A stretch of DNA of 64,000 nt from Aromatoleum diolicum (GTDB lineage: Bacteria; Pseudomonadota; Gammaproteobacteria; Burkholderiales; Rhodocyclaceae), in NCBI RefSeq assembly GCF_012910955.1, contig NZ_WTVQ01000015.1:1-64000 (forward strand). Direction: 5' to 3'. The position numbers and the translations under genes were made by a program. The notes beneath the pieces were generated by a model. The model saw only the letters and a program-made list of their open reading frames with translations. It was not told the DNA's origin and did not search any database. Positions 3,132-40,469 of the stretch are shown here, in pieces. The first letter of the stretch is position 1. Each line of letters opens with the position of its first letter.

Positions 3132-3134
3132 GAC

Positions 3135-12287: not shown

Positions 12288-12307
12288 ACAGATACCCCGA
12301 GCACGAC

Positions 12308-17515: not shown

Positions 17516-18952
17516 TTAGAGGACTTCATCCTTCATGTTGTACCAGCGGTACAACCACCATTGGCCGAAGCGGCGGAAGGGCGCGAAATACTCCGACTCG
17601 ACCATCTCGCGCACGTTGGGGAAAGGCAGCTTCGAGCGGAAGATCGGCAGCTCGGGGGTGCGAATGCCGGCGATGTTCTCGGCCAGGCGGCGGCCGGCCT
17701 GCGCCGAATACATCACGCCGTTGCCACCGTAGCCGAGCGCGTAATAGATCGTCTGCTTCGGGTCCGGCTGAAAGATGCGCGGCATCATGTCGTGGCTGAC
17801 ATCGACCCAGCCCCACCACGAGTAGTCGATCTGGATGCCTTCGAGCGCCGGGAACTTGCGGTGCAGGTCGCGGATCAGGAACTGCTTGTACTTGTCCTGC
17901 GGCGCGTCGCTGCCGGTGATCGCGCTGCGACTGCCGATCTGCACGCGGCCGTCGGGCAGCAGGCGGTAGTAGTGGCGCAGGATGCGGGTGTCGGTGATGA
18001 CCTGGGTCGTACGGAAGTTGCAGGCGTCGATCTCGGACTTCGTCAGCGGGCGAGTGACGATCGAGTTCGACAGGATCGGCAGCAGGCGATTTTTCAGTTC
18101 CGGATGCAGGCCGTTCGACGTGTAGCCACCGGTCGCGACACCGACCGCGCGGGCACGCACGATGCCGCCCGGCGTCTTGAGGTAATGCACGCCGTTGCGG
18201 GTTTCCCAGCCGATCACCGGGCTCGACGGATGGACTTTCGCGCCGAGCGCGCGCGCCTTCTTCAGGTAGCCGAAGGCGAGCTTGCCGGCATGGATGCCGA
18301 TGCCTTCCGGCTCGTGCATCGCGCCCGCGGCTTCCTTGTCATCGACGTATTCGCGCTTCACCGTGTCGGCATCGAGGATGCGCGCGTCGTACTTGAAGAC
18401 GTCGCGCAGGATCTTCGCTTCCTTCTCCAGCACCGGCATGACCTTGGGCCGGTGCGCGATGTAGAGATGGCCACCGGGCTGCGGCTCGCAGTCGATGTCC
18501 TTGATCAGATCCTTGAAGGTCTGCATGCCGTCGCAGATTTCCTCGTGCATGCGCAGGGCGGTATCGAGGCCGTAGCGCTGGATCCACTGCGAGCGCTTCA
18601 GGCGCCCCGACGCGCATTGGGCCTGGCCGCCGTTGCGGGTGCTGCAGCCCCAGCTGACGCGGTTGGCTTCGAGTACGGTCGCCTTGATGCCGTATTTCTC
18701 GGCGAGGAAAATCGCGGTCGTCAGGCCGGTGAAGCCGGAGCCGATGATCGCGACGTCGACGTCGATGTCGTGGGTGATCGGGCCATCGTCGGCGGGCGGT
18801 TCGCCGGCGGTACCGATCCAGTAGGTCGGCGCGTACTCGCGGCCTTGTCCGGGCGTCGTCGCGACCAGCGGGTCATAGGCCGGATCGTAAGCTTGCGATG
18901 GCGCGCTGGCCCGGCCGCTGGTGATGATCCGCTTTTCTGCAATGGCTTCCAT
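17516..18952 (-). CDS. tauY: FAD-dependent oxidoreductase, probable taurine dehydrogenase large subunit (TauY)
   Basis: A DadA-type amine oxidoreductase of 478 residues. The dinucleotide motif is VDVAIIGSGFTGLTTAIFLAEKYG; later segments are SWGCSTRNGGQAQCASG and GYGGNGVMYSAQAGRRLAENI, the second FAD contact. It probably oxidatively deaminates taurine to sulfoacetaldehyde and passes electrons to the respiratory chain. The assignment rests on the preceding small SnoaL-like gene (TauX) and the following TRAP genes, the tauXYKLM order known from Rhodobacter, and on xsc nearby. A related amine is the alternative substrate. GGAG precedes ATG 18952 by 8 bases; the longer frame to 19078 lacks support. 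Confidence 0.78.
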   Translation of the reverse strand: MEAIAEKRIITSGRASAPSQAYDPAYDPLVATTPGQGREYAPTYWIGTAGEPPADDGPITHDIDVDVAIIGSGFTGLTTAIFLAEKYGIKATVLEANRVSWGCSTRNGGQAQCASGRLKRSQWIQRYGLDTALRMHEEICDGMQTFKDLIKDIDCEPQPGGHLYIAHRPKVMPVLEKEAKILRDVFKYDARILDADTVKREYVDDKEAAGAMHEPEGIGIHAGKLAFGYLKKARALGAKVHPSSPVIGWETRNGVHYLKTPGGIVRARAVGVATGGYTSNGLHPELKNRLLPILSNSIVTRPLTKSEIDACNFRTTQVITDTRILRHYYRLLPDGRVQIGSRSAITGSDAPQDKYKQFLIRDLHRKFPALEGIQIDYSWWGWVDVSHDMMPRIFQPDPKQTIYYALGYGGNGVMYSAQAGRRLAENIAGIRTPELPIFRSKLPFPNVREMVESEYFAPFRRFGQWWLYRWYNMKDEVL

Positions 18953-18992
18953 GTCCCGACTCCTGTCTGTTATCGCGCGCGTGATTGCCGGC

Positions 18993-19412
18993 TCAGTTGC
19001 CAGCGCCGGCGACCGGCGGACGGTCCTTGCGATAGGCGTTCTTGACCGCGATCTTGCCGTCGCGGAAGGTGAATACATCGACCATCCGCGCTTCGATGCG
19101 GCTGCCGTCGGCCTTGGTGCCGCAGAACGTCGATTCCGACACGCCGCGATCGCCGCAGACGAAGTGTTCGCCGTTCAGCCACGCGGCATCGGGGAAGTTC
19201 TGCCACGCCAGCTGGAAACCAGCCCTTACGGCATCGCGGCCTGCGAAGCTCTTGCCCAGCAGGTCGGGACCGCCAACCGCATGGAAAACACAATCGTCGG
19301 CCATGAAGCTCATCAGGGCGTCGATGTCGTGACGGTTCCAAGCTTCGCTGAAAGCCTTCAACATCTCTGCGCTGGCTTCATTGCGGGTCTGGGTGGCTAC
19401 CTGGCTGCTCAT
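18993..19412 (-). CDS. tauX: SnoaL/NTF2-like protein, probable taurine dehydrogenase small subunit (TauX)
   Basis: A 139-residue protein with an NTF2/SnoaL fold: an N-terminal helix (LKAFSEAWNRHDIDALMSFMADDCVFH) followed by beta strands ending in DVFTFRDGKIAVKNAYRK. Alone it would be called a nuclear-transport-factor-2 family protein. Its position directly before the FAD enzyme (40-bp gap) matches TauX of the two-subunit taurine dehydrogenase. It is the first gene of its operon, behind a promoter that shares its layout with those of xsc and pta. GGAGAC precedes the ATG. Confidence 0.7.
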   Translation of the reverse strand: MSSQVATQTRNEASAEMLKAFSEAWNRHDIDALMSFMADDCVFHAVGGPDLLGKSFAGRDAVRAGFQLAWQNFPDAAWLNGEHFVCGDRGVSESTFCGTKADGSRIEARMVDVFTFRDGKIAVKNAYRKDRPPVAGAGN

Positions 19413-19586: not shown

Positions 19587-20420
19587 TCAGACGATACGAC
19601 CGGCCATCGGTGACGAGGGCGATGCGGCGAAGCGTCGCGGGATGCGGCCGGCGAGAAACGCTTCGCGCCCCGCCTCCACAGCCAGGCGCATGGCACGGGC
19701 CATGCGGATCGGTTCGCGGGCGCCGGCGATCGCGGTATTCATCAGCACGCCATCGCAGCCGAGCTCCATCGCGATCGCCGCATCCGAGGCGGTGCCCACG
19801 CCGGCATCGACAATCACCGGCACCCTCGCCTGCTCGATGATCAAGGACAGGTTCCAGGGGTTCAGGATGCCCATGCCCGAGCCGATCAGGCTCGCGAGCG
19901 GCATCACCGCGACGCAGCCGATGTCCTCGAGGATGCGCGCCTGGATCGGGTCGTCGCTGCAATAGACCATCACGTCGAAACCGTCCTTCACCAACGCCTC
20001 GGCCGCCTTCAGCGTCTCGGGCATGTTGGGGAACAGGGTCTTCTCGTCGCCGAGCACTTCGAGCTTGCACAAGGGGTGGCCATCGAGCAGTTCGCGGGCG
20101 AGTTGCAGGGTGTAGACCGCGTCCCTGGCGGTGTAGCAGCCGCCGGTGTTCGGCAGGATCGTGAATTGCGACGGCGGCACGGCGTCGAGCAGGCTCGGCT
20201 CACTGGCGTGCTGACCGATGTTCACGCGGCGGATCGTCACGGTGACGATTGCGGTGCCACTCGCGTCGACCGCCGCGCGGGTTTCGTCGAAATCGCGGTA
20301 TTTGCCGGTGCCCACGAGCAGGCGCGACGCATAGGTCTTGCCGGCGATCGTGAGTCCGGCCGATGCCGCGCCCGCGGTGTCGGCATCCAGCCCATCCGTG
20401 GGCGTGTCGTTCAGGTTCAT
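19587..20420 (-). CDS. thiG: Thiazole synthase ThiG
   Basis: A TIM-barrel thiazole synthase of 277 residues, with an N-terminal extension of about 20 residues before homology starts at [19 protein letters not shown]. Family motifs are [37 protein letters not shown] (Schiff-base lysine region), [16 protein letters not shown] and [17 protein letters not shown]. It condenses deoxyxylulose phosphate, dehydroglycine and sulfur from ThiS thiocarboxylate into the thiazole of thiamine. It lies 28 bp after thiS at the end of the xsc operon. No other thi genes are in the window, so it may be an extra or relocated copy supplying ThDP for Xsc. Confidence 0.92.
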
Positions 20421-20448
20421 GGGGGCGCTCCTCCTCTCAATGCTTTTA

Positions 20449-20658
20449 TTAGCCGCCGCCGATCGCCACGACGACCTCGACGCGATCGGCCGGATGCAAG
20501 ACGCGCTCTTGCCAGCCTGGCGACGCGACGACCTCGCGGTTGATTGCGACCGCGACGCGTTTTCCGAGCAGGTCGAGGCTCGCGATCAGGTCATGCAGCG
20601 TCTTGCCCTGCCCTACCGCGTGCGAGGCGCCGTTCAGTTCGATCGTGATCGTCGCCAT
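20449..20658 (-). CDS. thiS: Sulfur carrier protein ThiS
   Basis: A 69-residue ubiquitin-fold protein ending in AIGGG, with the C-terminal Gly-Gly needed for thiocarboxylate formation. [21 protein letters not shown] is the typical N-terminal region. It donates sulfur to ThiG, encoded immediately downstream. Its location after the sulfonate exporter gene, in the operon of the ThDP enzyme Xsc, is unusual. Confidence 0.92.
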
Positions 20659-20732: not shown

Positions 20733-21773
20733 TCAGGCCGCGATCAGCCGGCTCAGATAAACGACCAGCAGCATGTAGCCGGCGACGAACAGCGCCTCGC
20801 TGGACATCAGCACGATCGGCTTCCAGCCGAGTTCGGCGAGCTTCTCGAGCGAGGTCTTGACGCCGAGCGCGGAAATCGAGATCACCAGGCACCAGCGCGA
20901 CAGCGTCGAACTCGCCTCGACGACGGCATGCGACAGCAGTCCCAGACTGTTGAGCGTCGCCAGCGCCGCGAAGGCGACCAGGAACAGCGGCAGGATCGGC
21001 GTCTTCGTGTTGCTGCCACCGTTTGCCTTCTTGCGCTCGCCGTGGAACACCAGCGCCAGCACGACGACCACCGGCATCAGCATCGCGACGCGGAACATCT
21101 TCGCCAGCGTCGCCGCGTCGCCGACTTCGGGCGAGATGATCAGCCCGGCGCCGACGACCTGCGCGACGTCATGGATCGAGCCGCCGAGAAAGAGCCCCGC
21201 TTCGCTGACCGACAGCCCCGCGCTCTTGACGACGAGCGGATACAGCACCATCGCCACGGTCGAGAAGATCGCGACGCCAATCGCCGTGAGCAGCGTGTAG
21301 CGCTCGTTCTCGCGCGTTGCCGGCAGCGTCGAGGAAATCGCCAGCGTCGCCGAGATGCCGCAGATCCCGGTGCCGCCGCCGGAGAGCAGGCCGAGCATCG
21401 ACGGCAGTCCGAGAAGGCGCGCGAGCAGCAGGCCGAAGCCGATCGTCAGCACCACCGCACCGACAAGGGCGCCGACACCGATCAGGCCGAGATCACTGAC
21501 GTCGCTCGCGACGATGCGCGCACCGAGCAACGCGACACCGAAACGCACGAGCTTCTTCGCCGAGGCTTCGATGCCGGGGATGCATTTTTCGGAGTCCGAC
21601 AGAAAATGGAACGCGATGCCGATCAGCAGCGCGTAGAGAAATTGCGGTCCGCCGTAGTGCTCGGACACGAAAGTCGCCGCGACCGCGATCACGGTGCACA
21701 ACATGAAGCCCGGCATCAGCACGCGCACCTCGCTGAACATCGCGGGTGGCGCAATAGTTGTTTGAGTGGTCAT
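20733..21773 (-). CDS. tauZ: YeiH/UPF0324-family membrane protein, putative sulfate/sulfite exporter (TauZ-like)
   Basis: A polytopic inner-membrane protein of 346 residues with about ten hydrophobic segments. Family marks include GIAFHFLSDSEKCIPGIEASAKKLVRFGVALLG, LSGGGTGICGISA and GGSIHDVAQVVGAG. Members of this family (Cons_hypoth698) recur in C2-sulfonate clusters and are proposed to export sulfate or sulfite. It lies 95 bp downstream of xsc, whose reaction releases sulfite, so detoxifying export is the likely job; direct proof of transport is lacking. A DUF81-type exporter gene (tauE) lies in the second sulfonate block. Confidence 0.8.
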   Translation of the reverse strand: MTTQTTIAPPAMFSEVRVLMPGFMLCTVIAVAATFVSEHYGGPQFLYALLIGIAFHFLSDSEKCIPGIEASAKKLVRFGVALLGARIVASDVSDLGLIGVGALVGAVVLTIGFGLLLARLLGLPSMLGLLSGGGTGICGISATLAISSTLPATRENERYTLLTAIGVAIFSTVAMVLYPLVVKSAGLSVSEAGLFLGGSIHDVAQVVGAGLIISPEVGDAATLAKMFRVAMLMPVVVVLALVFHGERKKANGGSNTKTPILPLFLVAFAALATLNSLGLLSHAVVEASSTLSRWCLVISISALGVKTSLEKLAELGWKPIVLMSSEALFVAGYMLLVVYLSRLIAA

Positions 21774-21868: not shown

Positions 21869-23680
21869 TCAGACGTAGTCCTTGTACTTGTCGAGCAGGC
21901 GCACGGGCTTCGCCAGCGCGTCACGCCGGAACGGGTCGCCGAGTTCGCGCGTGCACATGATCTCGATGATGCAGGTCTTGCCCTCGTTCATCTGCATGTC
22001 GATGGCGCGCTTCAGCGCCGGGCCGACGTCTTCGAGCCGATCCACGGTGATGCCCTCGGCGCCCATCGCGCGCGCGATTTCCGCGAAGCTCTGGTTGTCG
22101 AGCTCGCCGGCGACGAAGCGGCGGTTGTAGAAGTCCACCTGGTTCTTCTTCTCCGCGCCCCACTGGCGATTGTGGAACACCACCGCCGTCACCGGGATGT
22201 TGTGCCGCACGCAAGTCATCGTCTCCATCAGGCTCATGCCCCAGGCGCCGTCACCGGCGTAGGACACCGCCGGACGATGGGGTGCCGCGACCTTGGCGCC
22301 GATGATCGTCGGGAACGCGTAGCCGCAGTTGCCGAAGCTCATCGCGGCGAAGAAGCTGCGCGGCTTCTCGAAGCGCAGGTAGCTGTTGGCGACCGAGTTG
22401 ATGTTGCCGATGTCGGTCGACACCATCACATCCTCAGGCATCGCTTTTTCCAGTTCGCGCAGCACCTGGCGCGGGTGCAGGTATTCGCCGCCGGAGAAGG
22501 GCTTTTCCTTGGCGTTCTCTTCGATCATGTCGAGGCTGAAGGGGTCGCGCTCGTGCGTCCACTCGTCGAGTTCGCGCTCCCATGCGGTCTTCTCGGCCTG
22601 CACCTTGGCATAGCGCTGCTCGCGCGTCGCGTCGCATTCCAGCGTGCGACCGGTCAGGCGCCACGTGAGCGCCTTGGCCGCGGCCTTGGCGTCGCCGCAG
22701 ATGCCGACCGAGATCTTTTTCACCAGGCCGAGCATCTTGTTGTCGGCGTCGATCTGGATGATCTTGGCGTTCTTCGGCCAGTAGTCCATGCCGTGCTGCG
22801 GCAGCGTGCCGAAGGGGCCGAGGCGCGAACCCAGCGCGATGACCACGTCGGCCTGCGCCATCAGCTTCATCGCCGCCTTCGAACCCTGATAGCCGAGCGG
22901 ACCGCACCACAGCGGGTGACTCGCGGGGAAGGAGTCGTTGTGCAGGTAGCTGTTCACGACCGGGGCGCCGAGGCGCTCGGCGAGTGCCTTGCATTCCTCG
23001 ACCGCGTCGGCCATCACCACACCGCCGCCCGCGATGATCACCGGGAACCTGGCGGTGGCAAGCAGTTCGGCCGCCTCGTTGAGGCTCGCTTCGCCGCCGG
23101 CGCCACGGTCGAGCCGCGCGGGCTTGGGGATCTCGCAGGTGATCTCGCCGTAGAAGTAGTCGCGCGGGATGTTGAGCTGGGTCGGGCCCATCTCGCTCAT
23201 CGCGCGGTCGAAGCAGCGCCCGGTGTATTCGGCCATGCGCGCGGGGTGGGTGACGTGGCCCTGGTACTTGGTGAATTCCTGGAACATCGGCAGCTGCTTG
23301 CATTCCTGGAAGCCGCCCAGGCCCATCGTCATCGTGCCGGTCTCGGGGGTCACGATCACCACCGGGCTGTGCGCCCAGTAGGCCGCACCGATGGCGGTGA
23401 CGCAGTTGCTGATGCCGGGGCCGTTCTGCCCGATCACCACGCCGTGGCGCCCCGACACGCGCGAGAAGCCGTCGGCCATGTGGCCCGCGCCCTGCTCGTG
23501 CACCACCGGGATCAGGCGGATGCCGGCCGGCGCGAAGATGTCCATCGCGTCCATGAAGGCCGATCCCATGATCCCGAACATGTCGGTCACGCCGTTGGCC
23601 ACCATCGTCTCGACGAAGGCTTCCGACGGGGTCATCTTCTGCGGGCCGATGACGACTTCGCGGCGGTCTTTTTCGCTCAT
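21869..23680 (-). CDS. xsc: Sulfoacetaldehyde acetyltransferase (Xsc)
   Basis: A ThDP-dependent enzyme of 603 residues that converts sulfoacetaldehyde and phosphate to acetyl phosphate and sulfite. It has the three-domain acetolactate-synthase layout: the catalytic glutamate (E62, in VVHEQGAGHMADG), a central Rossmann-like domain, and the ThDP/Mg motif starting at GDGAWG (about residue 476) and ending at HNRQWG. QWGAEKKNQ-DFYNRRFVAGEL and the C-terminal tail are Xsc-like and exclude acetolactate synthase and oxalyl-CoA decarboxylase. AGGAGA precedes ATG 23680. It heads an operon with tauZ, thiS and thiG and diverges from the cobS-like gene. Confidence 0.93.
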   Translation of the reverse strand: MSEKDRREVVIGPQKMTPSEAFVETMVANGVTDMFGIMGSAFMDAMDIFAPAGIRLIPVVHEQGAGHMADGFSRVSGRHGVVIGQNGPGISNCVTAIGAAYWAHSPVVIVTPETGTMTMGLGGFQECKQLPMFQEFTKYQGHVTHPARMAEYTGRCFDRAMSEMGPTQLNIPRDYFYGEITCEIPKPARLDRGAGGEASLNEAAELLATARFPVIIAGGGVVMADAVEECKALAERLGAPVVNSYLHNDSFPASHPLWCGPLGYQGSKAAMKLMAQADVVIALGSRLGPFGTLPQHGMDYWPKNAKIIQIDADNKMLGLVKKISVGICGDAKAAAKALTWRLTGRTLECDATREQRYAKVQAEKTAWERELDEWTHERDPFSLDMIEENAKEKPFSGGEYLHPRQVLRELEKAMPEDVMVSTDIGNINSVANSYLRFEKPRSFFAAMSFGNCGYAFPTIIGAKVAAPHRPAVSYAGDGAWGMSLMETMTCVRHNIPVTAVVFHNRQWGAEKKNQVDFYNRRFVAGELDNQSFAEIARAMGAEGITVDRLEDVGPALKRAIDMQMNEGKTCIIEIMCTRELGDPFRRDALAKPVRLLDKYKDYV

Positions 23681-23730
23681 TTGTGCTGTCTCCTGGGGTG
23701 AGGTCAATCAATCGAATAACGAACGTTTTC

Positions 23731-23795
23731 CGATACGATTTGTTCCGCTATCCGATACGTGATCGAACTTTAGGACGGCAAAAATAAAACGTCAA
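23731..23795 (-). promoter_or_regulatory. xsc promoter with IclR-type palindrome
   Basis: On the minus strand, TTGACG (23795-23790), 17 bp, TAAAGT (23772-23767), then 19 bp further the imperfect palindrome CGATAC-GATTT-GTTCCG (as read on the plus strand, 23731-23747). Order, spacing and intervening sequence match the tauX and pta promoters. Confidence 0.75.
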
Positions 23796-23821
23796 GCGTT
23801 AATTTCATTTTTCGGAACTTA

Positions 23822-23851
23822 TTGAAACTTTATTCGGAATATAGCTATCAT
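23822..23851 (+). promoter_or_regulatory. Predicted promoter for the cobS-like operon
   Basis: TTGAAA (23822-23827), 18 bp, TATCAT (23846-23851), about 30 bases before the ATG. It is flanked by TTCGGAA repeats (23811-23817 and 23833-23839) that resemble IclR half-sites, so the divergent module may be under the same control. Confidence 0.5.
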
Positions 23852-23880
23852 GCGATCGCATTGACCCCGAGGAGACTGCC

Positions 23881-24861
23881 ATGATGGAAATCGCGATCGA
23901 CAAGCCGGACCAGCTGGTTTCGGTGCGCACGGCGTTCGGAATCGATTCCGACCTGACGGTGCCGGCGTTCAGCGAACGTGACGACCACGTGCCGGAGATC
24001 GACGAGGCCTACCGCTTCAACCCCGACGTGACGCTGGCGATCCTCGCCGGCTTCACGCGCGACCGGCGGGTGATGGTCCAGGGCCTGCACGGCACCGGGA
24101 AGTCGACGCATATCGAACAGGTCGCCGCGCGGCTGAACTGGCCCTGCGTGCGCGTGAACCTCGACGGTCACATCAGCCGGCTGGACCTGGTCGGCAGGGA
24201 CGCGATCGTCGTGCGCGACGGCAAGCAAGTCACCGAATTCCAGGAGGGCATCGTGCCGTGGGCGCTGCAGCGGCCCGTGGCGCTGATCTTCGACGAGTAC
24301 GATGCGGGCCGCCCGGACGTGATGTTCGTGATCCAGCGCATCCTCGAGCGCGACGGCAAATTCACGCTGCTCGACCAGAACCGCGTGATCCGCCCTCACC
24401 CGTATTTCCGCCTGTTCGCGACCTCCAACACGGTGGGGCTCGGAAACCTGTCGGGCCTGTACCACGGCACCCAGGTGTTGAACCATGCGCAGATCGACCG
24501 CTGGAACATCGTCGCGACGCTGAACTACCTGCCGCGCGACGAGGAAGTCGCGATCGTGCTGGCGCGCGTGCCGGCCAAGAATTACGCCAAGGGCCGCCAG
24601 CTGATCGCTGCGATGGTCGCGGTGGCCGATCTGACGCGCAAGGGCTTCGCCGCCGGCGACATTTCGACGCTGATGTCGCCGCGCACGGTGATCACCTGGG
24701 CCGAGAACTGCGAGATCTTCCGCAACCCGGCGCTGGCGTTCCGGCTCTCCTTCCTCAACAAGTGCGACGAGGTCGAACGGCCCATCGTCGCCGAGTACTA
24801 CCAGCGCTGCTTCGGCGTGGAGCTCGACGAATCGTGGATGCGCGAAGCCGGAGCGCAGTGA
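23881..24861 (+). CDS. CobS-like AAA+ ATPase (MoxR-type)
   Basis: An AAA+ ATPase of 326 residues. Walker A (GLHGTGKST) lies at residues 68-76 and Walker B ([10 protein letters not shown]) at about 134-143, followed by [10 protein letters not shown], sensor-1 [10 protein letters not shown] and an arginine-rich sensor-2 zone ([12 protein letters not shown]). The whole length resembles CobS, the ATPase of aerobic cobaltochelatase. No CobN or corrin genes are here, so it is probably a relative acting with the VWA partner on another protein, as in other AAA-VWA pairs. It diverges from xsc, suggesting a task in sulfonate metabolism; this is inferred. GAGGAG lies 6 bases before the ATG. It overlaps the next gene by one base. 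Confidence 0.82.
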
Positions 24862-26588
24862 TGCCCACGCCGCAGCAAAAGGCGCAGCGGCAGCAGAAGG
24901 TCGAGGAGTTGTGCGCCGCGACGCTGCGCGCGCTGACCGGCGACGCCGCGCTGCACTATCGCGGACGGCGCCTGTACGCGGGGGCACGGCCGCTGCCGAT
25001 GCACGCGCCGCACTTGCGCGTCGATCCTGCCGAGGACGGTTTTGCCGACTGTCGCGCGACGGCCGACGGGATGGCGCTGCGCTTGCTGCACTCGGACGCC
25101 GACCTGCATCGCAAGCTGTGCCCGACGGACCCGGTCGAACGCCTGGTCTTCGAATTGCTGGAGCAGCTGCGCGTGGAGACGCGGGTCCCCGCCGACATGC
25201 CCGGCATGGCGGCGAACCTGTATGAGCGCTTCGAGAACTGGTCGCGCGCCTTCTATCGCTCCGGCCTCACCGAAGGCAGCCTCGGCATCCTGCTGTATAC
25301 GGTGGCGCAGATGTGCTGGTCGCGCCTGACGGCGCAGCGCGTGCTGGAGGAAACCGAGGACTACATCGAAGGCACGCGCGTGTCGCTGGTCGGCGCGCTC
25401 GGCACCGCGCTGGCCGGCATCCGGCGCCACCGCGACGATCAGGAATCGTTTGCGCGCCACGCGCTGGAGATCGCCCGCATCGTCGGCGAGCGCGTGCGCG
25501 CCGAACGCGCTGAAACCGCGGATGAGGAATCGGACAAGGAAGACGAGTACGCCAAATCCGGCTTCGCTTTGCTGCTGGACTTCGACGACGGCCAGGACGC
25601 CGGCGACGGCATCGCCGCCGCGACGACCGGCGCGAGCAAGGTGTTCGAGGACGCCGCCCTCGCCTACCGCGTCTACACGACACGCTTCGACACCGAGGTC
25701 GCCGCCGCCTCGCTGGTGCGCCGCGCGCTGCTGCGCGAATACCGCGAGCGACTCGACCGTCACATCGTCGAGCAGGGCGTGAACCTCCCCCGCCTCGCGC
25801 GCATGCTCGCCGCGGTGCTGGCCGAGCCCGCCCGCGACGGCTGGCTGTTCGGCGAGGAGGAAGGCCACATCGACGGCCGCCGCCTCGCCCAGGTCATCAG
25901 CTCGCCGGGCGAACGCCGCGTGTTCCGGCAGGAGCGCTACCTGCCGCATGCCGACTGTGTGGTCAGCTTCCTCATCGACTGCTCGGGCTCGATGAAGGCG
26001 CATATCGAACCGGTCGCGATGATGATCGACGTCCTCATCCGTGCGCTCGAGACGATCGGCGCGCGCACCGAACTGCTCGGTTTCACCACCGGTGCCTGGA
26101 ACGGCGGCCGTGCGTACCGCGACTGGATGAGCCGCGGTCGGCCGCGCCACCCGGGGCGGCTCAACGAGGTCTGCCACATGGTGTTCAAGGACGCCGAGCG
26201 CAGCTGGCGGCGCGCGCGCGCCGACATCGCCGCGCTGCTCAAGGCCGACCTGTTCCGCGAAGGCATCGACGGCGAGGCGGTCGACTGGGCCTGCAACCGC
26301 CTGCTCGCGAAGAGCGCGGCCCGGCGCATCCTGATCGTGATCTCGGACGGCTGCCCGTCCGACGGTGCCACCGCCCTCGCCAACGACCCCTTCTATCTGG
26401 ACAACCACTTGAAGGACGTCGTCGCCCGGCGCGAACAACAAGGCGCCGTGGAGATCCTCGGGCTTGGGGTCGGTCTGGACCTCAGCCCCTTCTACCGGCG
26501 CAGCCTCGCCACCGACATGACGCAAGGGCTCGACAACACGCTGTTCTCGGATATCGTTCAGTTGATGGGCGGCCGGCACCGGCGCTGA
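24861..26588 (+). CDS. CobT-like VWA-domain protein
   Basis: A 575-residue partner of the CobS-like ATPase. The N-terminal half is helical, with an acidic stretch (ETADEESDKEDEY, about residues 215-230). The C-terminal half is a von Willebrand A domain whose MIDAS begins DCSGSMK at residue 373, followed by TGAWNGG and VISDGCPSDGATA. This matches CobT, the chaperone subunit of cobaltochelatase, but the usual partner CobN is absent. The start at 24861 overlaps the cobS-like stop (TGATG), implying coupled translation and a fixed complex. Its target could be a metal- or cofactor-dependent sulfonate enzyme; nothing in the sequence proves this. Confidence 0.82.
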   Translation: MPTPQQKAQRQQKVEELCAATLRALTGDAALHYRGRRLYAGARPLPMHAPHLRVDPAEDGFADCRATADGMALRLLHSDADLHRKLCPTDPVERLVFELLEQLRVETRVPADMPGMAANLYERFENWSRAFYRSGLTEGSLGILLYTVAQMCWSRLTAQRVLEETEDYIEGTRVSLVGALGTALAGIRRHRDDQESFARHALEIARIVGERVRAERAETADEESDKEDEYAKSGFALLLDFDDGQDAGDGIAAATTGASKVFEDAALAYRVYTTRFDTEVAAASLVRRALLREYRERLDRHIVEQGVNLPRLARMLAAVLAEPARDGWLFGEEEGHIDGRRLAQVISSPGERRVFRQERYLPHADCVVSFLIDCSGSMKAHIEPVAMMIDVLIRALETIGARTELLGFTTGAWNGGRAYRDWMSRGRPRHPGRLNEVCHMVFKDAERSWRRARADIAALLKADLFREGIDGEAVDWACNRLLAKSAARRILIVISDGCPSDGATALANDPFYLDNHLKDVVARREQQGAVEILGLGVGLDLSPFYRRSLATDMTQGLDNTLFSDIVQLMGGRHRR

Positions 26589-26647
26589 CGCGTCGCACGA
26601 AGCGCACCGGCAATACCCTCAACCCTAGTCAGGAGGAAAACTCAGGA

Positions 26648-27001
26648 ATGGCCAAGACCAGAATGGTCGTGCAGTTCGGCATGGGGACTTCGATCCGCAG
26701 CCAGGACTACACGCAGGCAGCGGCGCGCGCGATTCGCGACGCCTTGTGGCACAACTCGCTCAACGTCGCCAGCGCGTTCGATTTTCCGCGCGAGCAGATG
26801 CTGATCGACGTCGAGATCGGCGTACAGAAGCCGGATGCGGTCGACACGGCGGCACTCGTCGGGATCTTCCCGTACGGCCAGCCCTCGATCAAGGTGGTCC
26901 GGGGCGGACTCGACGTCAGCAAGGCGGACGGCAGCGGCGTGACCGTGATCGCCAACGCCGCAATCGTGGTTTCCTTCGACATGGAGCGCACCCATGCCTG
27001 A
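26648..27001 (+). CDS. Lin0512-family protein, copy 1
   Basis: A 117-residue protein of unknown function that I recognise as the Lin0512 conserved family. It starts with VVQFGMGTSIRSQDYTQAA and continues with DALWHNSLNVA, VEIGVQKPDAVDTAALVGIFPYG and a glycine-rich strand VRGGLDV. It is small, soluble and has no signal peptide. It follows the CobT-like gene by 59 bp and is followed by a paralogue overlapping its end by 8 bases. The pair probably forms a hetero-oligomer. No reaction can be named. Confidence 0.75.
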   Translation: MAKTRMVVQFGMGTSIRSQDYTQAAARAIRDALWHNSLNVASAFDFPREQMLIDVEIGVQKPDAVDTAALVGIFPYGQPSIKVVRGGLDVSKADGSGVTVIANAAIVVSFDMERTHA

Positions 27002-27374
27002 AAAACGCATCATTCTGGAGATGGGCACGGGCAACGATCTGTACGGGGGCGACTACACCAAGGCGGCCTGCCGCGCAGTGCACGACGCGCTGCATCATTC
27101 GTCGATCCTGCTGTTCCGCACGCTCGGCTACGATCACCGCGACATGCGGGTGCAGGTGACGATCGGCGTGCAGGCGCCGGACAAGGTCGACGCAGCCGTG
27201 GTCGCCGCCGAACTGCCGCGCGGCAAGGCCGAAGTGACGGTCGTGTTCGGCGGGCTCGACGTCCACGACCCCGAACTGGACATCACCCATGTCGTGGCGA
27301 CAGCGGCGGTAGCGGCCTTCGTGCCAGTCGAGGCTGCGGACTGGCGCCTGAGCGCGACGCCCGACGCGGCTTGA
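26994..27374 (+). CDS. Lin0512-family protein, copy 2
   Basis: A 126-residue paralogue of the preceding protein. It shares the start pattern (ILEMGTGNDLYGGDYTKAA), the middle (DALHHSSILLF, VTIGVQAPDKVDAAVVAAELPRG) and VFGGLDV, but has a longer C-terminal tail. Its ATG lies inside the end of copy 1 (8-base overlap), implying translational coupling and equal amounts. It is the last gene of the cobST-like operon and converges with a small membrane-protein gene 22 bp away. Confidence 0.75.
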   Translation: MPEKRIILEMGTGNDLYGGDYTKAACRAVHDALHHSSILLFRTLGYDHRDMRVQVTIGVQAPDKVDAAVVAAELPRGKAEVTVVFGGLDVHDPELDITHVVATAAVAAFVPVEAADWRLSATPDAA

Positions 27375-27395
27375 GTCGCCTGCGGACAGGCGCTA

Positions 27396-27773
27396 CTAGG
27401 CCTGCGCGCGGCGCCGCAAAACCGTGCCGTGCGCGTGCTGCCGGCTGTCTCCCTGCGTAACGGATTCCCGGGCCAGCGTCGCGTCGAGCGTGGCCTGGTC
27501 TTCCGCCGACAACCGGAGCCCGCTCGACGCCAGGCGCCTTAAGGTTTCCTCCACCTCCCAGGGCGCGGCGATCACGCGCTTCTTGCCGTTCTTCATTTCC
27601 GCATGCAGCCAGTACGCGTCGATTTCGGGGGCCGCCCTGAGATACAGGCGGGACACGTCTCCGGGCCGGGCTTCCAGCCATGCGAGCCCCTCGCGCTTCT
27701 TCTTGCTGCCGACGAAATACGCAATGAAAAGCAAAGCGATTACGGCTGCGCTGGCGCCAAGCAGTTCCATCAT
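27396..27773 (-). CDS. Small single-pass membrane protein, function unknown
   Basis: A 125-residue protein with one N-terminal hydrophobic helix (about residues 5-23, ASAAVIALLFIAYFVG) and a charged KKKREG stop-transfer, so the rest is cytoplasmic. The soluble part contains WLHAEMKNGKKRVIAAPWEVEETLRRL. I do not recognise a family. AGGAG precedes ATG 27773 by 7 bases, which decides it over 27770 and over the longer upstream frame. It lies downstream of acxR on the same strand (184-bp AT-rich gap) and may have its own promoter there. Confidence 0.6.
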   Translation of the reverse strand: MMELLGASAAVIALLFIAYFVGSKKKREGLAWLEARPGDVSRLYLRAAPEIDAYWLHAEMKNGKKRVIAAPWEVEETLRRLASSGLRLSAEDQATLDATLARESVTQGDSRQHAHGTVLRRRAQA

Positions 27774-27957: not shown

Positions 27958-30000
27958 TCAGTTCGCCCGCACGCGGTGGATATCACCCTCCAGCCCGTAG
28001 AGCTTGACCTTCTGGTACAGGGTGCTTTTCGCGATGTCGAGTTCGCGCGCGGCGCGAGTCAGGTTGCCATGCGTGGCGGCAATCGCGCGGCGGATCAGAT
28101 CGACCTCGCCTTCCGCGATGCTGCCGACCTGAGCAGTAGCCGTCAGGGCGCCCAGGGCGGACGCGACCGGCGCGCTGACGGGAGCATCCGCCATGCCGAG
28201 CAGTTCCGGCGGCAGCGCGTCGATGCCGGCCTCTTCGCCGTCGCTCATCAACAGCACGCTCTCGATGACGTTGCGCAGTTCTCGCACGTTACCCGGCCAC
28301 GTGTAGCTTTCGAGGCGCGCGAGCAGCTCCTCGTCGAGCCGCCGCGGCCCCAGCTCGTGCTGTTTCGCAAAGCGCGCGACGAAGTATTCGGCAAGCGCGC
28401 GGACATCGCCCGTACGCTCGCGCAGCGGAGGGATGCGGATCGAGGTCACCGCGACGCGGTAGAAAAAGTCCATGCGGAAGCGCGCCTCGGCGACTTCCTT
28501 GCGCAGGTCGCGGTGGGTCGCCGCGATCAGGCGGAAACTGACCTTGCGCGGCACGTTCTCGCCGAGCCGATAGATCTCGCTCTGCTCGAGCACACGCAAC
28601 AGATGCGGCTGCAGGTCGAGCGGCATCTCGCCGATCTCGTCGAGAAACAGCGTGCCACCGTTCGCCGCCTCGATCTTGCCGACCATGCCGCCGCGGCGCG
28701 CGCCGGTGAACGCGCCATCGACGTAGCCGAAGAGCTCGCTCGCAAGCAGTTCGCGCGACAGGCCGCCGCAGTTCAGCGCGACATAGGGGCCGTCGCGGAA
28801 GGGACTGGCCTTGTGCAAGCCTTGCGCGAATTCCTCCTTGCCCACGCCCGTCTCGCCGAGCAGCAGCACCGGGACCTTGGAACGCGCCAGCTGGTCCGCT
28901 TTGCGCACCGCGTCGCGCAGCGCCGGATCATGGGTGATGATCGTCGCGAAACCGGTGGGCATGTTCTGCGCCGCCGCCGGTTCGCGCGACAAGCCGCGCG
29001 CGCCCTCGCAGGAAATCGCGCGGCCAAGACGCGGCAACGGCAGCACCAGCAGCGTCCCGAGCCGCTCGCCGCGACTGCCGATCACGGGCTCCAGCCACTC
29101 CGGCCGCAGCCACGCGGGCACGCCGGAAACCTGCGCCAGCGTGCCGTTGTCGGCGATTGCCAGGGCGGGCATGCGACGCGGGGCGGCGAGATCCAGATCG
29201 GCGCCGAGCGCGCTCATCGCGGCCTGCGCGAGCTCGTTCGCCTTCACCGGATAACCGCGGCGATCGAACAGGACCAAGCCGTCGGTGCCTCCGGACCAGC
29301 GCCGCAGCGAGGCGTCGAGCAAGTGGTAGCGCCGCTCCATTTCGCGCATCGCGATCTTGTTCTCGATGCGGCTCGCGGTCGTGACGACCAGCGCCAGGCT
29401 CTGGCGGCTGTAGGTCTCCGACAGTCCGGAAACGTCGACGACGCCGATGATTTCGCCGTCGTGCGGATGGCGGATCACGGTCGCCGAGCAGGTCCAGCGC
29501 TTGATGCCGGCGCAGTAATGCTCGGCCGAATGGATCTGCACCGGTTCACCGACCGCGAGCGCGGTGCCGATCGCGTTGGTGCCACAGATGCGCTCGCTCC
29601 ACGCGACACCGGGCAGCAGGTGGATGCTCTCCGCGGAGCCGATCGTCGGGTTGTCGCCCTCCATCGTCAGGATCGTGCAGCTGGTGTCGGCGAGCGCCAT
29701 GACCGTGCCGGTTTCGGACAGGAAGTCGCGCGCATAGGCCATGATCGGCGCACCGGCTTCGAGCAGTTCGCCGTGGCGTGCCTTCAGCGACTCAAGCGCG
29801 GATTCCTCGACCGGCGGCGGCGCACTGCGTTTATCGGGGTCGACGTTCTGTTGCTGGCAGCGTTGCCACGAGCGATCGACGAGTGCGCGCAGCGAATCGG
29901 ACGGGCGGCTGGCGCCGTCGAGAAAACGCTCCCATGCGGCCATCACCGTGGCGTCACTGCCGGGATCGGAAAACTTCTGCCCTTCGGGCACGCGTGTCAT
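27958..30000 (-). CDS. acxR: Sigma54-dependent transcriptional activator (AcxR/AcoR-like)
   Basis: A 680-residue enhancer-binding protein. An N-terminal GAF-type sensory region (about residues 70-220, with [19 protein letters not shown] as in AcoR) is followed by a PAS-like segment and the AAA+ domain. Walker A is GETGVGKE (382-389) and the sigma54 contact loop GAFTGA is at 429-434; both are intact. A Fis-type helix-turn-helix ([20 protein letters not shown]) closes the protein. It probably activates the acx operon from the sigma54-type promoter near 45717. GGAGGAG lies 6 bases before ATG 30000. It is the last gene on the acx strand, after a 370-bp gap containing a long palindrome. Confidence 0.88.
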
Positions 30001-30302
30001 CAGGTCTCCTCCTGGAGCGCGCTTCGCTGCGAGCCACGTCGTGCGCGGCCAATTGGACGGAGTCCTGTAAGTTCTGCAAGCGAAGGCGCAGTTAGTTGTG
30101 TCTTGCGGTCGGTCAGTCTCCAGCCGATGGAAAGTGCGCCGAGGGGGAATCCCCTCGCGGTAAACAAAGCATAGCAAATGCGGTGCCAGAAGAAGAATTT
30201 GCTCTGCTTCTTGTCCGGCGGCCGTTAGCGGGTCCTGCCAGGGCGCACGGATCGCCACCGGGAAGCCGCGCGAGAAGCGCTCGAAGCAGAGCATCGAACG
30301 CA

Positions 30303-30355
30303 ACCGTCCGGATTTCGAACGTTCGACATCGTACGGCGTTCGAAATCCGGACGGT
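30303..30355. repeat. Perfect 19-bp inverted repeat between scoB and acxR
   Basis: Arms at 30303-30321 and 30337-30355 are exact complements separated by 15 bp. The left arm, read to 30325, contains GTCCGGATTTCGAACGTTCG, which matches 17 of 20 positions of the element at 45846-45865 upstream of acxA. It could be an AcxR-binding site, a stem-loop ending the acx transcript, or both; a T-run is missing. The rest of the 30001-30371 gap shows no gene. Confidence 0.7.
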
Positions 30356-30371
30356 CGGCCGCTGCGACGTT

Positions 30372-31025
30372 TTAACCTGTCGCCAGCTCGCCGACTTCGA
30401 CCGGGGCGCCGGTGCGCGCGATGACTTCGTCGCTGCCGACTCCGGGGGCGGTTTCCAGCAAGCGCAGGCCCTGCGGCGTGACGTCGAGCACGCACAGGTC
30501 GGTGATGATGCGGCTCGCGACACCGACACCGGTGAGCGGCAGGTCGCAACGGCGCAGGATCTTCGGCTCGCCGCTCTTGCTGCAGTGCTCCATCATCACG
30601 ATCACGCGGCGCACACCGGCCACCAGATCCATCGCTCCGCCCATGCCTTTCACCAGTTTGCCCGGGATCATCCAGTTGGCCAGGTCGCCCTGCTCGCTGA
30701 CCTGCATCGCGCCGAGGATGGCGAGATCGATGTGGCCGCCGCGGATCATCGCGAAGGAATCGGCGCTGCTGAAGATGCTGCTGCCGGCGAGGGTGGTGAC
30801 GGTCTGCTTGCCGGCGTTGATCAGATCGGCGTCGACATCGGCCTCGGTCGGAAACGGCCCGATGCCGAGCAGGCCGTTTTCCGACTGCAGCCACACGTCC
30901 ATGCCCGGTGGAATGTGGTTGGCGACCAGCGTCGGCATGCCGATGCCGAGGTTCACGTAGTAGCCGTTGTGCAGCTCCTGCGCGGCGCGCCGGGCCATCT
31001 CGTTGCGTGTCCAGGCCATGTTCAT
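30372..31025 (-). CDS. scoB: 3-oxoacid CoA-transferase subunit B
   Basis: A 217-residue beta subunit of a family I CoA-transferase. The catalytic glutamate lies in [11 protein letters not shown] and the glycine-rich segment is [17 protein letters not shown]. With subunit A it moves CoA from succinyl-CoA (or another donor) to acetoacetate, the product of acetone carboxylation, giving acetoacetyl-CoA. Its ATG overlaps the scoA stop by four bases (ATGA), so the subunits are translated together. Confidence 0.9.
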
Positions 31026-31720
31026 TCCTGCCGTGTGGTGCGTTGTTCGATGTGCTTGGTCGGGCGCGGATTGACGACGATGCGCTGGACGAAGACGCCG
31101 GGGGTGTGGATCTGGTCGGGGTCGAGGGTGCCGGTGTCGACCAGCTCCTCGACTTCGGCCACCGTGATGCGCCCGGCGGTGGCGACCACCGGGTTGAAGT
31201 TGCGCGCCGTCTTGCGATAGACGAGGTTGCCGGCGCGGTCTGCCTTCCACGCCTTGACGAGGGCGATGTCGGCGGTCAGCGAATGTTCCAGCAGATAGCG
31301 CGTGCCGTCGATGTCGCGCTCCTCCTTGCCCTCGGCGACCAGCGTGCCGACGCCGGTGCGGGTGTAGAAAGCGGGGATTCCGGCGCCGCCGGCGCGCAGC
31401 TTTTCCGCGAGCGTGCCCTGCGGCGTCAGTTCCACCTCGAGTTCGCCCGACAGCAACTGGCGTTCGAACTCGGCGTTCTCGCCGACGTAGGACGCGACCA
31501 TCTTGCGAATCTGCCGCGTCGCGAGGAGCCGGCCGAGGCCGATGCCATCGACGCCGGCGTTGTTGCTGATCACGGTAAGATCCCGCACCTGCGCGTCGCG
31601 CAGACCGTCGATCAGCATCTCGGGAATGCCGCACAGGCCGAAGCCCCCGACCGCGACGGTCTGCCCGTCGCGCACGACGCCGGCCAGCGCGGCGCCGGCG
31701 TCCGGATACACTTTGCTCAT
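31022..31720 (-). CDS. scoA: 3-oxoacid CoA-transferase subunit A
   Basis: A 232-residue alpha subunit. It has [19 protein letters not shown] (CoA-binding glycine motif), [17 protein letters not shown], and [15 protein letters not shown]. It pairs with subunit B encoded directly downstream. It lies 19 bp after the acetoacetyl-CoA synthetase gene, so two different routes to acetoacetyl-CoA are encoded side by side. The homology start is ATG 31720. Confidence 0.9.
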
Positions 31721-31739
31721 AGGATTCTCCTGGTAAAAA

Positions 31740-33728
31740 TCATGTCGTGATCGCATCCGCGATGGCGCGCGCGGACTGCCCGATCGCGCCCACCGCGTCG
31801 ATCGCCCCCGGGTTCTCGATCGCCGACAGGTCGCCGAGACGGGTACCGAGGTAGGCGCTGCGCATCACCCGGCGCACCGTCTTGCCGTTGCGCGTCTTCG
31901 GGATTGCATCCACGCGGTGCACGTGCGCCGGGCGCAGCGGCTTGCCGAGCTGGCGACCGACGTGGTCGACGAGTTCCGCTTCGCACGCCGCCCACGGCCG
32001 CGCCGCCAGCGCTTCGCGCTCATTGACGGTGACGAAGCACACCACCGTCTCGCCCTTGAGTGCGTCGGGGACGCCGACCGCCACCGCCTCGACGACGAGC
32101 GGGTGCGACACCAGCGCGGATTCGAAGTCGGCGGGGCCGACGCGCTTGCCGGCAATCTTGATCGTGTCGTCGCTGCGCCCATGGACGAACCAGTAGCCGT
32201 CGGCGTCCACGCGCGCCCAATCGCCGTGCATCCACACGTCCGGCCACACCGACCAGTAGGCCTCGCGGTAGCGCTCCGTGTCGCGCCAGAAGCCATGGGT
32301 CATGCCGGGCCACGGCTGACGGATCGCGAGCTCGCCGACGCTGCCGCGCAGCGGCTCGCCGGCGCCGTCGAGCACTTCCACCGCCATGCCCGGGATCGGC
32401 CCGGAGAAGGAACCCGCCTTCTGCGGCAGGCCGGGAAAGCACGCGAGGATGCCGCCGCCGATCTCGGTGCCGCCCGAATAATTGATGATCGGGCGGCGCT
32501 GCTGCCCGACCTGCTCGAACAGCCACAGCCACGGCGCCTCGTTCCACGCCTCGCCGGTGGAACCGAAGATGCGCACGGTGTCGAGCGCACCTGGCGCCGG
32601 CAGGCTCGCGTCGTTCGCCATCAGCATCCGCACCAGCGTCGGTGACAGGCCGAAATGCGTGACGCCGTGACGCTCGACCACCTGCCACAGGCGTCCGGCG
32701 TCGGGGTAATCGGGCGTGCCCTCGTAGAGCACCAGCGTCGCGCCCAGCATCAGCCCGCCGTAGACCATCCACGGCCCCATCAGCCAGCCCATGTCGGTGA
32801 TCCACATCAGCGTATCGTCGGCGCGCAGGTCGAAGGCCATCAGCAGATCCTGCGCCGCCTTCACCGGGAAGCCGGCATGGGTGTGGACAACGCCTTTCGG
32901 TTTGCCCGTGGTGCCCGAGGTGTAGATCAGCATCAGCGTCTGGTCAGCCGGGAAGTCCGTGCGCGGGCAGCTGGACATGTAGCCCGGCAGCCTGCGGTAT
33001 TCGAACTCGACGCAGTTCGCGTCGGCTGCGTCGTCGGCGGTGCCCGAACCGGTACCGAGCCGGTCGACGACCACGAGCTGGCGCAGCGACGGACAGGCGC
33101 GCGCGGCCGCACGCGCATCGGCGAGCATCGGCACGCGCTTGCCACGGCGGTAGTAGCCGTTGGCACATACCAGTACGCGCGCGTCGCAGTCGGCGATGCG
33201 CTGCGCCACCGAGTCGGCACCATAGCCCGAAAAGAAGGGGATGAAGATCGCGCCGATGCGGGTCGCCGCGAGCATCGTCACGGCCGCCTCGGGGATCATC
33301 GGCAAGTAGAGCGCGATGCGGTCGCCCTCGCCCACGCCGAGCGCCCGCAAGCCGGCGGCGACGCGCTCCACCTCGGCCGCCAGCTCGGCGTAGCTGATCG
33401 TGATGAGTTCACCGCGGTCGCCCTCCCAGCGGATCGCGATCTTCGTCGGCGTCGCGCGGGCGTGCTTGCCGACGAGGTTGTCGACCAGATCGAGGCGCCC
33501 GTCGACAAACCACTTCGGCCACATCACGCCGTCGGCGACATCGAGCGTCTGGCGGTACGGCCTCACCCAGTCGAGGCCGATCGCTTCCAGCACCTGGTCC
33601 CAGAAGCGATCGGGTTCGCTCACCGCGCGTTCACGCAGGTCGTCGAGGTCGCGATAGCCATGGCGCGCGATGAAACGCGCGAGCTGCGTGGTGCGCCATT
33701 CACAGCCCTTGGGCGTGTGGATATTCAT
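31740..33728 (-). CDS. aacS: Acetoacetyl-CoA synthetase
   Basis: An AMP-forming ligase of 662 residues, the usual length for acetoacetate-CoA ligases. It starts with the family-specific N-terminal region, then [20 protein letters not shown] (P-loop), [14 protein letters not shown] (typical of AacS), the [20 protein letters not shown] hinge and [11 protein letters not shown] with the catalytic lysine. It activates acetoacetate with ATP and CoA. It is downstream of a terminator-like hairpin following the DUF1329 gene and upstream of scoAB. GGAG lies 8 bases before ATG 33728. Confidence 0.9.
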
Positions 33729-33792
33729 GTCGGTGTTCTCCGTCCCTTGTCCGTGTCGATCGCGCGCACCACCGCCGGCCCACCCTCGCCGC

Positions 33793-33830
33793 AAAAAAAT
33801 GTCCGCCCCCGAAAGGGGCCAGGGGCGGAC
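33793..33830 (-). terminator. Terminator-like hairpin between the DUF1329 and acetoacetyl-CoA synthetase genes
   Basis: On the minus strand a stem of GTCCGCCCC (3830 side) with its complement GGGGCGGAC is followed by A and seven T residues (A-run at 33793-33799). It lies 48 bases past the DUF1329 stop. It would end most transcripts from acxA, so aacS-scoAB may depend on read-through. Confidence 0.8.
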
Positions 33831-33877
33831 AAGGGAGGACCGGGGGCCCGGCGCGGAACGCGGTGACGCGGAGAGCC

Positions 33878-35203: not shown

Positions 35204-35219
35204 GGTGGTCTCCTCTTTT

Positions 35220-36836: not shown

Positions 36837-36922
36837 CTCCTCGCTCCTTGTGGTTTTGTCACTGCTCTGAAGGGATCACGGGCGGACGCGGCAGGTGTGC
36901 CGTCGCGTCCGCGGGGTATGGA

Positions 36923-39298: not shown

Positions 39299-39308
39299 CC
39301 TCGTCCCC

Positions 39309-40331: not shown

Positions 40332-40469
40332 CACTCTCTCCTTAACGCCCCGGAACGGCGCGCCTGATCATTTGTTCTTGCGCAGCAGGGCCCCTGCAGG
40401 GCAATCGCCTCGCATGAGTTGCTGCGGTAATCGGAGGAAAAATGGGGCGGAGCCCGAACCGCGGGCCCC

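Follow-up and report, generated by a model that had tools for sequence, protein, structure and literature searches.

Why should genes resembling two subunits of the aerobic cobaltochelatase stand beside xsc, the gene for sulfoacetaldehyde acetyltransferase? Xsc is a thiamine diphosphate enzyme; it cleaves the C-S bond of sulfoacetaldehyde, which is formed from taurine and isethionate, and releases sulfite. The question is raised by a stretch of 64,000 nucleotides of Aromatoleum diolicum (contig NZ_WTVQ01000015.1, positions 1 to 64,000; hereafter the window), in which a cobS-like and a cobT-like gene are followed by two genes of the Lin0512 family and diverge from xsc. This module is linked to xsc in many of the genomes compared, co-occurs with it, stands in a genome that has no CobN and goes together with a single clade of Xsc proteins. 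The module probably works with Xsc or the sulfonate pathway. The features concerned are:

23881-24861, + strand, cobS-like gene for an AAA+ ATPase of 326 amino acids, with profile matches and Walker motifs
24861-26588, + strand, cobT-like gene for a VWA protein of 575 amino acids, with a C-terminal VWA domain and the MIDAS-type motif DCSGSM
26648-27001, + strand, Lin0512 protein a, 117 amino acids (PF09585, 115.3 bits; TIGR02058, 59.9 bits, above the cut-off of 56.85)
26994-27374, + strand, Lin0512 protein b, 126 amino acids (PF09585, 112.1 bits; TIGR02058, 55.9 bits, slightly below the cut-off)
21869-23680, - strand, xsc, sulfoacetaldehyde acetyltransferase, the proposed client (TIGR03457, 1083.8 bits; C-terminal tail LDKYKDYV)
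23681-23880, no strand, intergenic region common to xsc and cobS, with promoter-like sites in both directions

The cobS and cobT genes overlap by one base (ATGA), the two Lin0512 genes overlap by 8 bases, and the xsc frame, which ends at 21869 and has its likely ATG at 23678-23680, leaves a gap of about 200 bp to the divergent cobS, all of which bore out the layout described in an earlier note on this DNA. Promoter-like sites were located in this gap on the + strand (23822-23851) and the - strand (23795-23767), and a search over 23600-27500 found three sites compared with a mean of 0.4 in shuffled sequences; the sites are consensus matches only. The same order of cobS, cobT, Lin0512 and xsc was seen again in several genera, and the arrangement is therefore not due to chance.

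The CobS-like protein matched PF12556 (CobS_N), PF07728 (AAA_5) and TIGR01650 over nearly its entire length, and with 557.6 bits on the equivalog model TIGR01650 it fell short of the cut-off (558.55) by one bit. The CobT-like protein matched PF06213 (CobT) and PF11775 (CobT_C); its score on the equivalog model TIGR01651 was 297.4 bits, widely below the cut-off of 759.05, its N-terminal half resembled CobT weakly, and its linker was shorter than that of the CobT encoded at locus L075. A full-length match to the cobaltochelatase subunits, as claimed earlier, is thus a fair description of CobS and a weak one for the N-terminal half of CobT. The Walker A and B motifs of the CobS-like protein and the VWA metal site DCSGSM of the CobT-like protein, which we take to be the nucleotide-binding and MIDAS motifs so named, appeared intact when the alignment was judged by eye, and the two adjacent genes accordingly encode an AAA+/VWA pair of the MoxR type. 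Sequence relatives of the CobS-like protein in the PDB were CobS (9UJV and others), midasin and CbbQ. Both Lin0512 proteins scored far above the PF09585 cut-off of 23.4, and Xsc far exceeded the TIGR03457 cut-off of 676.4 bits, confirming membership of these families.

Genomic linkage and co-occurrence with xsc

Named loci were taken from the best 80 of 538 Lin0512 relatives, an order set by similarity to the protein of the window and hence biased towards its type. (G numbers denote genomes and L numbers loci in the comparison sets; the named set overlaps the family sample described below, for example with L098 being a contig of G364 and L139 a contig of G383.) Either cobS or cobT was present at 43 of these loci, which included Azoarcus, Aromatoleum, Thauera, Halomonas, Billgrantia, Pseudomonas saliphila, Pseudogulbenkiania, Polaromonas, Rhodoferax and Sulfuritalea. 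A match to xsc was found at 33 of the 43, fragments at contig ends included, lying divergently upstream in 25 and only downstream in 8, a neighbourhood that fits a candidate client of the AAA+/VWA pair. The earlier note had regarded a frequent occurrence of Lin0512-CobST modules away from sulfonate genes as evidence against a link to sulfonate breakdown; xsc was not seen at 10 of the 43 loci, but in 8 of these the contig extends less than 1 kb upstream of cobS. Among the 37 named loci without cobST, a single one (L123) had an xsc match. The genomes behind 36 loci (35 of these 37, leaving out L101 and L121, together with L113, where CobT lies at a contig end) contained xsc in 28 cases (E<=1e-130) and CobT in 32. 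In five of them (G473, G474, G479, G480 and G492) a low-scoring CobT gene was located 3-4 kb from xsc on the same contig, with Lin0512 elsewhere. Halomonas urumqiensis (G472) had neither xsc (E<=1e-130) nor CobT and kept a Lin0512 pair, near thiC.

Within the window's family, 199 genomes were searched with thresholds of E<=1e-200 for xsc and E<=0.001 for Lin0512. Lin0512 was found in 17 of them, 16 of which (above the cut-off) carry a tandem pair, CobT in 23, with G321 and G376 scoring as canonical, and xsc in 30. Twelve of the 16 genomes with the pair had xsc, compared with 18 of the 183 without it; when xsc fragments and pieces were included (G322, G383, G413 and G388; the search at a lower threshold covered 13 genomes), this became 16/16 against 18/183. 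Low-scoring CobT was present in 15 of the 16 genomes with the pair and in 6 of the 183 others. It was likewise associated with xsc (13/21 versus 17/178; 17/21 counting fragments), the four genomes with low-scoring CobT and no xsc being G358, G454, G467 and G462, the last of which was outside the lower-threshold search. All 13 family genomes that combine low-scoring CobT with a full or nearly full xsc belong to the 15 with a high-scoring type of xsc, and CobT occurred in none of the other 15 xsc genomes. Gene lists for loci of the family and class samples (for example, G143, G340, G377, G321 and G376) are approximate and include some shadow open reading frames. Several contigs stop at or near the boundary between xsc and cobS, probably because many genomes have two near-identical copies of xsc (G340, G423, G412 and G418).

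In these four genomes, and at L088-L090, L095-L097, L104, L115 and L134, two xsc copies of nearly equal score lie on either side of the module or of a longer stretch. G388 (L065, L284) has xsc in pieces at two sites of one contig, perhaps rearranged between copies.

The class sample of 274 genomes yielded four matches to Lin0512, including the window's own, three of them above the cut-off. One of its genomes, G143, has the order xsc-pta-cobS-cobT followed by one Lin0512 gene, all co-directional.

A more distant comparison used 244 genomes, listed without completeness values, of the order of G481, which we take to be a Ruegeria (Rhodobacterales). Lin0512 was present in 127 and xsc in 171 of these genomes; 121 had both, 6 Lin0512 only, 50 xsc only and 67 neither. 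Thus xsc occurred in 121 of the 127 genomes with Lin0512 compared with 50 of the 117 without (odds ratio 27, Fisher p 8e-21, without correction for phylogeny). On a tree of Xsc based on a subset of 80 sequences from this order the Lin0512 label changed at least 11 times; the association of Lin0512 with xsc therefore does not go back to one inheritance.

In a phylogenetic analysis of 130 Xsc proteins, 35 from CobST loci or genomes, among them that of G377 (which has Lin0512 and no CobT match), grouped with that of G390 in a single clade (99*), next to which stood 14 proteins of family members that have no CobST. The C-terminal tail L(D/E)KY(K/Q)DYV was found in 32 of 32 complete Xsc proteins of the CobST clade (33 were tried, one being cut by a contig end). 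All 14 sister proteins had different tails (KYKNYV, KYKDYA, KYKEYV, KYRHCM and others), and the tails of 20 Xsc proteins from the Ruegeria order were quite different, whether or not Lin0512 was present. Inserts specific to the clade were a weak signal: four internal columns (394-397 in the numbering of the window protein) and the ends differed, the compared ends having been trimmed and the tail alone re-examined. The tail is reminiscent of the motif at the C-terminus of Rubiscos on which CbbQO acts; this is only a hint, because the sister tails are fairly similar.

Taken together, the relation of the module to sulfonate breakdown suggested in the earlier note emerged as strong and was narrowed to xsc by linkage and co-occurrence. 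The description as a four-protein machine proved not to be strict, since CobST stands beside xsc in G274 (99% complete) and in G426 (80%), and neither genome has a match to Lin0512.

CobN, the CobT lineage and the Lin0512 family

A search of the whole genome (5.15 Mb, 100% complete) with PF02514 gave no match to CobN, the subunit that would complete an aerobic cobaltochelatase CobNST. A CobN gene elsewhere that depends on these subunits, which would have spoken for vitamin B12 synthesis, was thus not found, and a role as B12 chelatase was rejected for this genome. Of 26 genomes examined, 7 contained CobN; 22 of the 26 had a low-scoring, non-canonical CobT, and in 16 of these 22 CobN was absent, some of the 16 being incomplete (down to 59% in G462, whose CobT match is a short piece). 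In the CobT tree (49 rows), 35 of 36 rows labelled as xsc-linked grouped in a single supported clade, from which eight alphaproteobacterial and two hcr-linked CobT were separate; the label takes in loci at contig edges as well as G364, where the linkage was not seen directly, and some branches are long. The exception was the xsc-linked CobT of G143, which lay outside the main clade. Two unlinked rows were placed inside (G454) and outside (G358) it.

A second CobS-CobT pair in genomes without a CobN match was noted in G321 (L075:3067-10451) and G376 (L076), where it diverges from genes for the alpha and beta subunits of 4-hydroxybenzoyl-CoA reductase. It scored 589 and 716 bits, the CobT being just below the cut-off; genes at L075 were named from models and those at L076 by clustering.

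For the Lin0512 family, a solved relative is available from Nostoc punctiforme (PDB 3C8L, labelled 'FtsZ-like'), which was matched at the profile level with an E value of 4e-29. The predicted fold of Lin0512 protein a (mean predicted local distance difference test, pLDDT, 85) resembles it with a template modelling score (TM) of 0.84; weaker fold matches (E >0.003) were to FtsZ, RidA-type proteins and chorismate mutase. A search of the open-access literature found no paper on Lin0512, nor one on CobST with xsc; a single paper, a re-annotation of Ruegeria, names both sulfoacetaldehyde acetyltransferase and CobS. In alphaproteobacteria, Lin0512 pairs often have no CobST next to them.

In alphaproteobacterial loci L153, L158 and L159 (approximately positions 2000-12500) the pair directly follows a cobO-type gene near cobW and cobN (CobN and CobW were named by a model at L159 and by clustering at L153 and L158), so Lin0512 may touch the canonical cobaltochelatase too. 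Lin0512 loci of SAR116 and Ruegeria have neighbours other than cobO and cobW-cobN. Single Lin0512 genes were present on 11 Azospirillum plasmids; at the two of these loci that were examined (L007 and L008), neither CobST nor xsc was annotated nearby, and the neighbourhoods were unrelated.

Proposed function and alternative explanations

Position and co-occurrence make Xsc the most likely enzyme served. We tentatively suggest that Xsc is the direct client of the CobST-like motor; equally tentative is the view that the module acts on Xsc as an AAA+/VWA activase and has Lin0512 for a partner. Physical contact with Xsc, action as an activase, a role for Lin0512 and damage by sulfite to the cofactor of Xsc are what we infer here. 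In such a system the CobS- and CobT-like proteins would be a ring-shaped AAA+ motor and a VWA adaptor that departed from B12 synthesis and came to serve Xsc. The VWA/MIDAS domain of the CobT-like protein could, as in CbbQO, take hold of Xsc at an acidic or C-terminal feature. Hydrolysing ATP, the CobS-like ring would then open up the active site, letting a dead or inhibited state of the cofactor out and fresh thiamine diphosphate in. The Lin0512 pair, as a heteromeric partner, might recognise either Xsc or the cofactor once damaged.

Sulfite released by Xsc might split the thiamine cofactor of the enzyme itself. Since Xsc makes sulfite, sulfite cleaves thiamine and thiamine genes are found near some of the loci, the motor might eject inhibited or broken cofactor from Xsc. 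In the window thiS-thiG lies by xsc (19587-20658), and thiS-thiG or thiC was found in the flank of 8 of the 43 loci; thiamine genes near xsc occurred in Betaproteobacteria and Halomonas (L117, L134, L091, L099 and L138). Cleavage of thiamine by sulfite is described in PMC8839250, and PMC11206890 supports it for metabisulfite. That the damage consists in sulfite cleavage of thiamine diphosphate is nevertheless rather doubtful in our estimation. We would call it speculative that the module is a cofactor-repair machine, in which the motor and the Lin0512 pair pry the sulfite-broken cofactor from Xsc and a new one binds, helped by the neighbouring thiamine genes.

Known systems offer partial parallels. 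The pair resembles CobN-CobS-CobT in that CobS scores near the equivalog level, the VWA domain of CobT is homologous and the best sequence matches in the PDB come from solved structures of CobS and CobT; it differs in that there is no CobN, the CobT-like protein is far below the cut-off and in its own xsc-associated clade, and the genes lie by xsc. According to PMC4660213, CbbQO relieves Rubisco of inhibitors, binding through the metal site of the VWA domain, and the Rubiscos associated with cbbQO have a C-terminal motif. As described there, CbbQ and CbbO are thus likewise an AAA+ ring protein and a VWA/MIDAS adaptor that act on one specific enzyme, with a client motif comparable to the tail of Xsc, whereas the present proteins belong to the CobS/CobT lineage, come with two additional Lin0512 proteins and have a thiamine diphosphate enzyme as proposed client. 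NorQ and NorD are, in the passages available, also a MoxR-type AAA+ and VWA pair serving one enzyme; unlike the module, NorQD serves nitric oxide reductase by insertion of iron (PMC9976466, PMC13036017), and these passages on NorQD contain no Lin0512. Lin0512 protein a is similar to 3C8L in profile and predicted fold, with the difference that here a tandem pair is tied to CobST and xsc. Among AAA+/VWA enzyme-remodelling pairs, what is likely to be new here is the probable client, together with the partner family. Should the cofactor-repair reading be true, no earlier AAA+ activase of a thiamine enzyme is known to us, and Lin0512 would gain its first function. A functional link would give a first role to a family present in more than half of the Ruegeria-order genomes (127/244), would call for correction of B12-derived CobS/CobT annotations in this group and raises the question of how a sulfite-producing enzyme protects a sulfite-sensitive cofactor, on which no paper was found.

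Several observations weigh against this interpretation. Many Xsc proteins have no module, as in the Ruegeria order, where 50 of the 117 genomes that lack Lin0512 contain xsc, and in the 15 family genomes with xsc and no CobT; the Xsc of G390 belongs to the CobST clade and has the same tail, yet its genome has no CobT. Conversely, the CobT of G454 (99% complete), at a contig end, belongs to the xsc clade, and the genome has neither Lin0512 nor xsc; G358 is without xsc, and G467 has only a 69-bit piece of it. G258, from the class sample, combines a Lin0512 pair with an unlinked xsc, CobN and two canonical CobT, and the two genomes with CobST beside xsc that lack Lin0512 (G274 and G426) belong here as well. 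CobT was found in all 40 controls from the Ruegeria order (34 random Lin0512-free genomes and 6 with Lin0512 only) and hence does not discriminate there, and a low-scoring CobT coexists with a CobN elsewhere in the genome in 6 of 22 cases. Adjacency to thiamine genes concerns a minority of loci, perhaps four lineages. In the family sample Lin0512 also co-occurs with acetone carboxylase (PF08882; 11/16 versus 31/183, p 2e-5) without conserved adjacency, which shows that lifestyle can generate such tables; lifestyle and phylogeny confound co-occurrence, and the tests were made without phylogenetic correction.

Four rival explanations were weighed. The module might act on a different step of sulfonate metabolism, such as transport or DAO-type taurine oxidation, and merely be co-induced with xsc. 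The divergent promoter-like sites in the xsc-cobS gap agree with this, as do an IclR-type gene flanking 28 of the 43 loci, a DAO gene at 17 of them and, at L107, L113 and L123-L126, a DAO gene that precedes the Lin0512 pair in the same orientation. However, in three of those DAO-Lin0512 genomes (G474, G479 and G480) cobT lies 3 kb from xsc instead, and Lin0512 co-occurs with xsc in the Ruegeria order without close linkage; we consider shared regulation as the whole explanation unlikely. Another candidate is a molybdenum sulfite dehydrogenase of the Soe type that disposes of the product of Xsc and is matured or protected by CobST. CoxD and CoxE, which serve carbon monoxide dehydrogenase, are a model for such maturation of a molybdenum enzyme. 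Support comes from a fused Fe-S/molybdopterin oxidoreductase gene between cobT and Lin0512 in G340 (L053:8679-12463) and beside Lin0512 in G377 (L068), from distant relatives of it near xsc in L308, L309 and L311, and from the CobN-less CobST pair diverging from genes of the molybdenum enzyme 4-hydroxybenzoyl-CoA reductase in G321, with the same two gene families in G376; this too tells against Xsc as the enzyme served. This oxidoreductase gene was nevertheless found at 1 of the 43 named CobST loci compared with xsc at 33, and in none of the window proteins scanned, which represent part of its open reading frames, and no model names the fused oxidoreductase a sulfite dehydrogenase. We consider a molybdenum client distinctly unlikely.

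Still less probable is a function in vitamin B12 synthesis, with the pair working with a distant CobN or Lin0512 being a cobalamin protein. The Lin0512 pairs that follow a cobO-type gene by cobN and cobW, and the six low-scoring-CobT genomes with CobN elsewhere, point in this direction; the lack of CobN in this genome and in 16 of the 22, the separation of 35 of the 36 xsc-labelled CobT from the alphaproteobacterial ones and a genomic linkage that is to xsc argue against it, and the contention of the earlier note that the pair is no B12 chelatase here was upheld. Acetone carboxylase, with genes 13-19 kb away, was considered as a client on account of its acxCBA-type genes (40537-45758) and a sigma-54 regulator in the same window, and the co-occurrence of Lin0512 with PF08882 in the family speaks for it. 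It was rejected because adjacency to the module is not conserved: none of the 80 named Lin0512 loci (the best 80 of 538) has an acetone carboxylase match, and in the ten other family genomes with both, PF08882 is distant or on another contig, the exception being G465, where a paralogue lies at a distance of about 10 kb. We regard its probability as close to negligible. An activase for Xsc is the preferred, if tentative, reading.

The fused oxidoreductase, possibly a sulfite dehydrogenase, is also present in L081 (G467), and in L053 it has an unassigned neighbour of 281 amino acids.

Surroundings within the window

Annotation of the window extended to 48 kb. Genes to the left of xsc encode a YeiH-type protein, ThiS, ThiG, a small ketosteroid-isomerase-related protein, an FAD oxidoreductase and a TRAP transporter; to the right of the module an acetone carboxylase cluster is followed by a TauE-type exporter and phosphate acetyltransferase:

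20733-21773, - strand, membrane protein of the YeiH/PF03601 family, a putative exporter, adjoining xsc (PF03601, 229.5 bits; TIGR00698 below the cut-off)
20449-20658, - strand, ThiS-like sulfur carrier (PF02597, 50.4 bits)
19587-20420, - strand, ThiG-like thiazole synthase (PF05690, 357.7 bits)
17516-19078, - strand, FAD-dependent (DAO) oxidoreductase (PF01266, 190 bits; no NCBIfam model above its cut-off)
40537-45758, acetone carboxylase genes of the acxCBA type
45938-46702, - strand, TauE/SafE-type exporter (PF01925, 72.2 bits)
46704-47888, - strand, phosphate acetyltransferase, pta (TIGR00651, 357 bits; cut-off 311)

A YeiH-type gene was also found beside xsc in some other genomes. The DAO oxidoreductase may be the large subunit of taurine dehydrogenase, and the pta product would use acetyl phosphate from Xsc. 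As sulfonate-type genes stand on both sides of the acetone carboxylase cluster, the setting of the module looks like a sulfonate-degradation region interrupted by acetone genes.

The intervening region (27958-45758) contains, with the acetone carboxylase cluster, a sigma-54 activator, a CoA-transferase, an acyl-CoA synthetase and DUF1329, DUF1302, MMPL and YCF48-like genes. Further to the left, at 7768-8589 and 10659-12287, are genes of cyclohexanecarboxylate metabolism, encoding BadH (2-hydroxycyclohexanecarboxyl-CoA dehydrogenase) and cyclohexanecarboxylate-CoA ligase, both of which scored above curated cut-offs.

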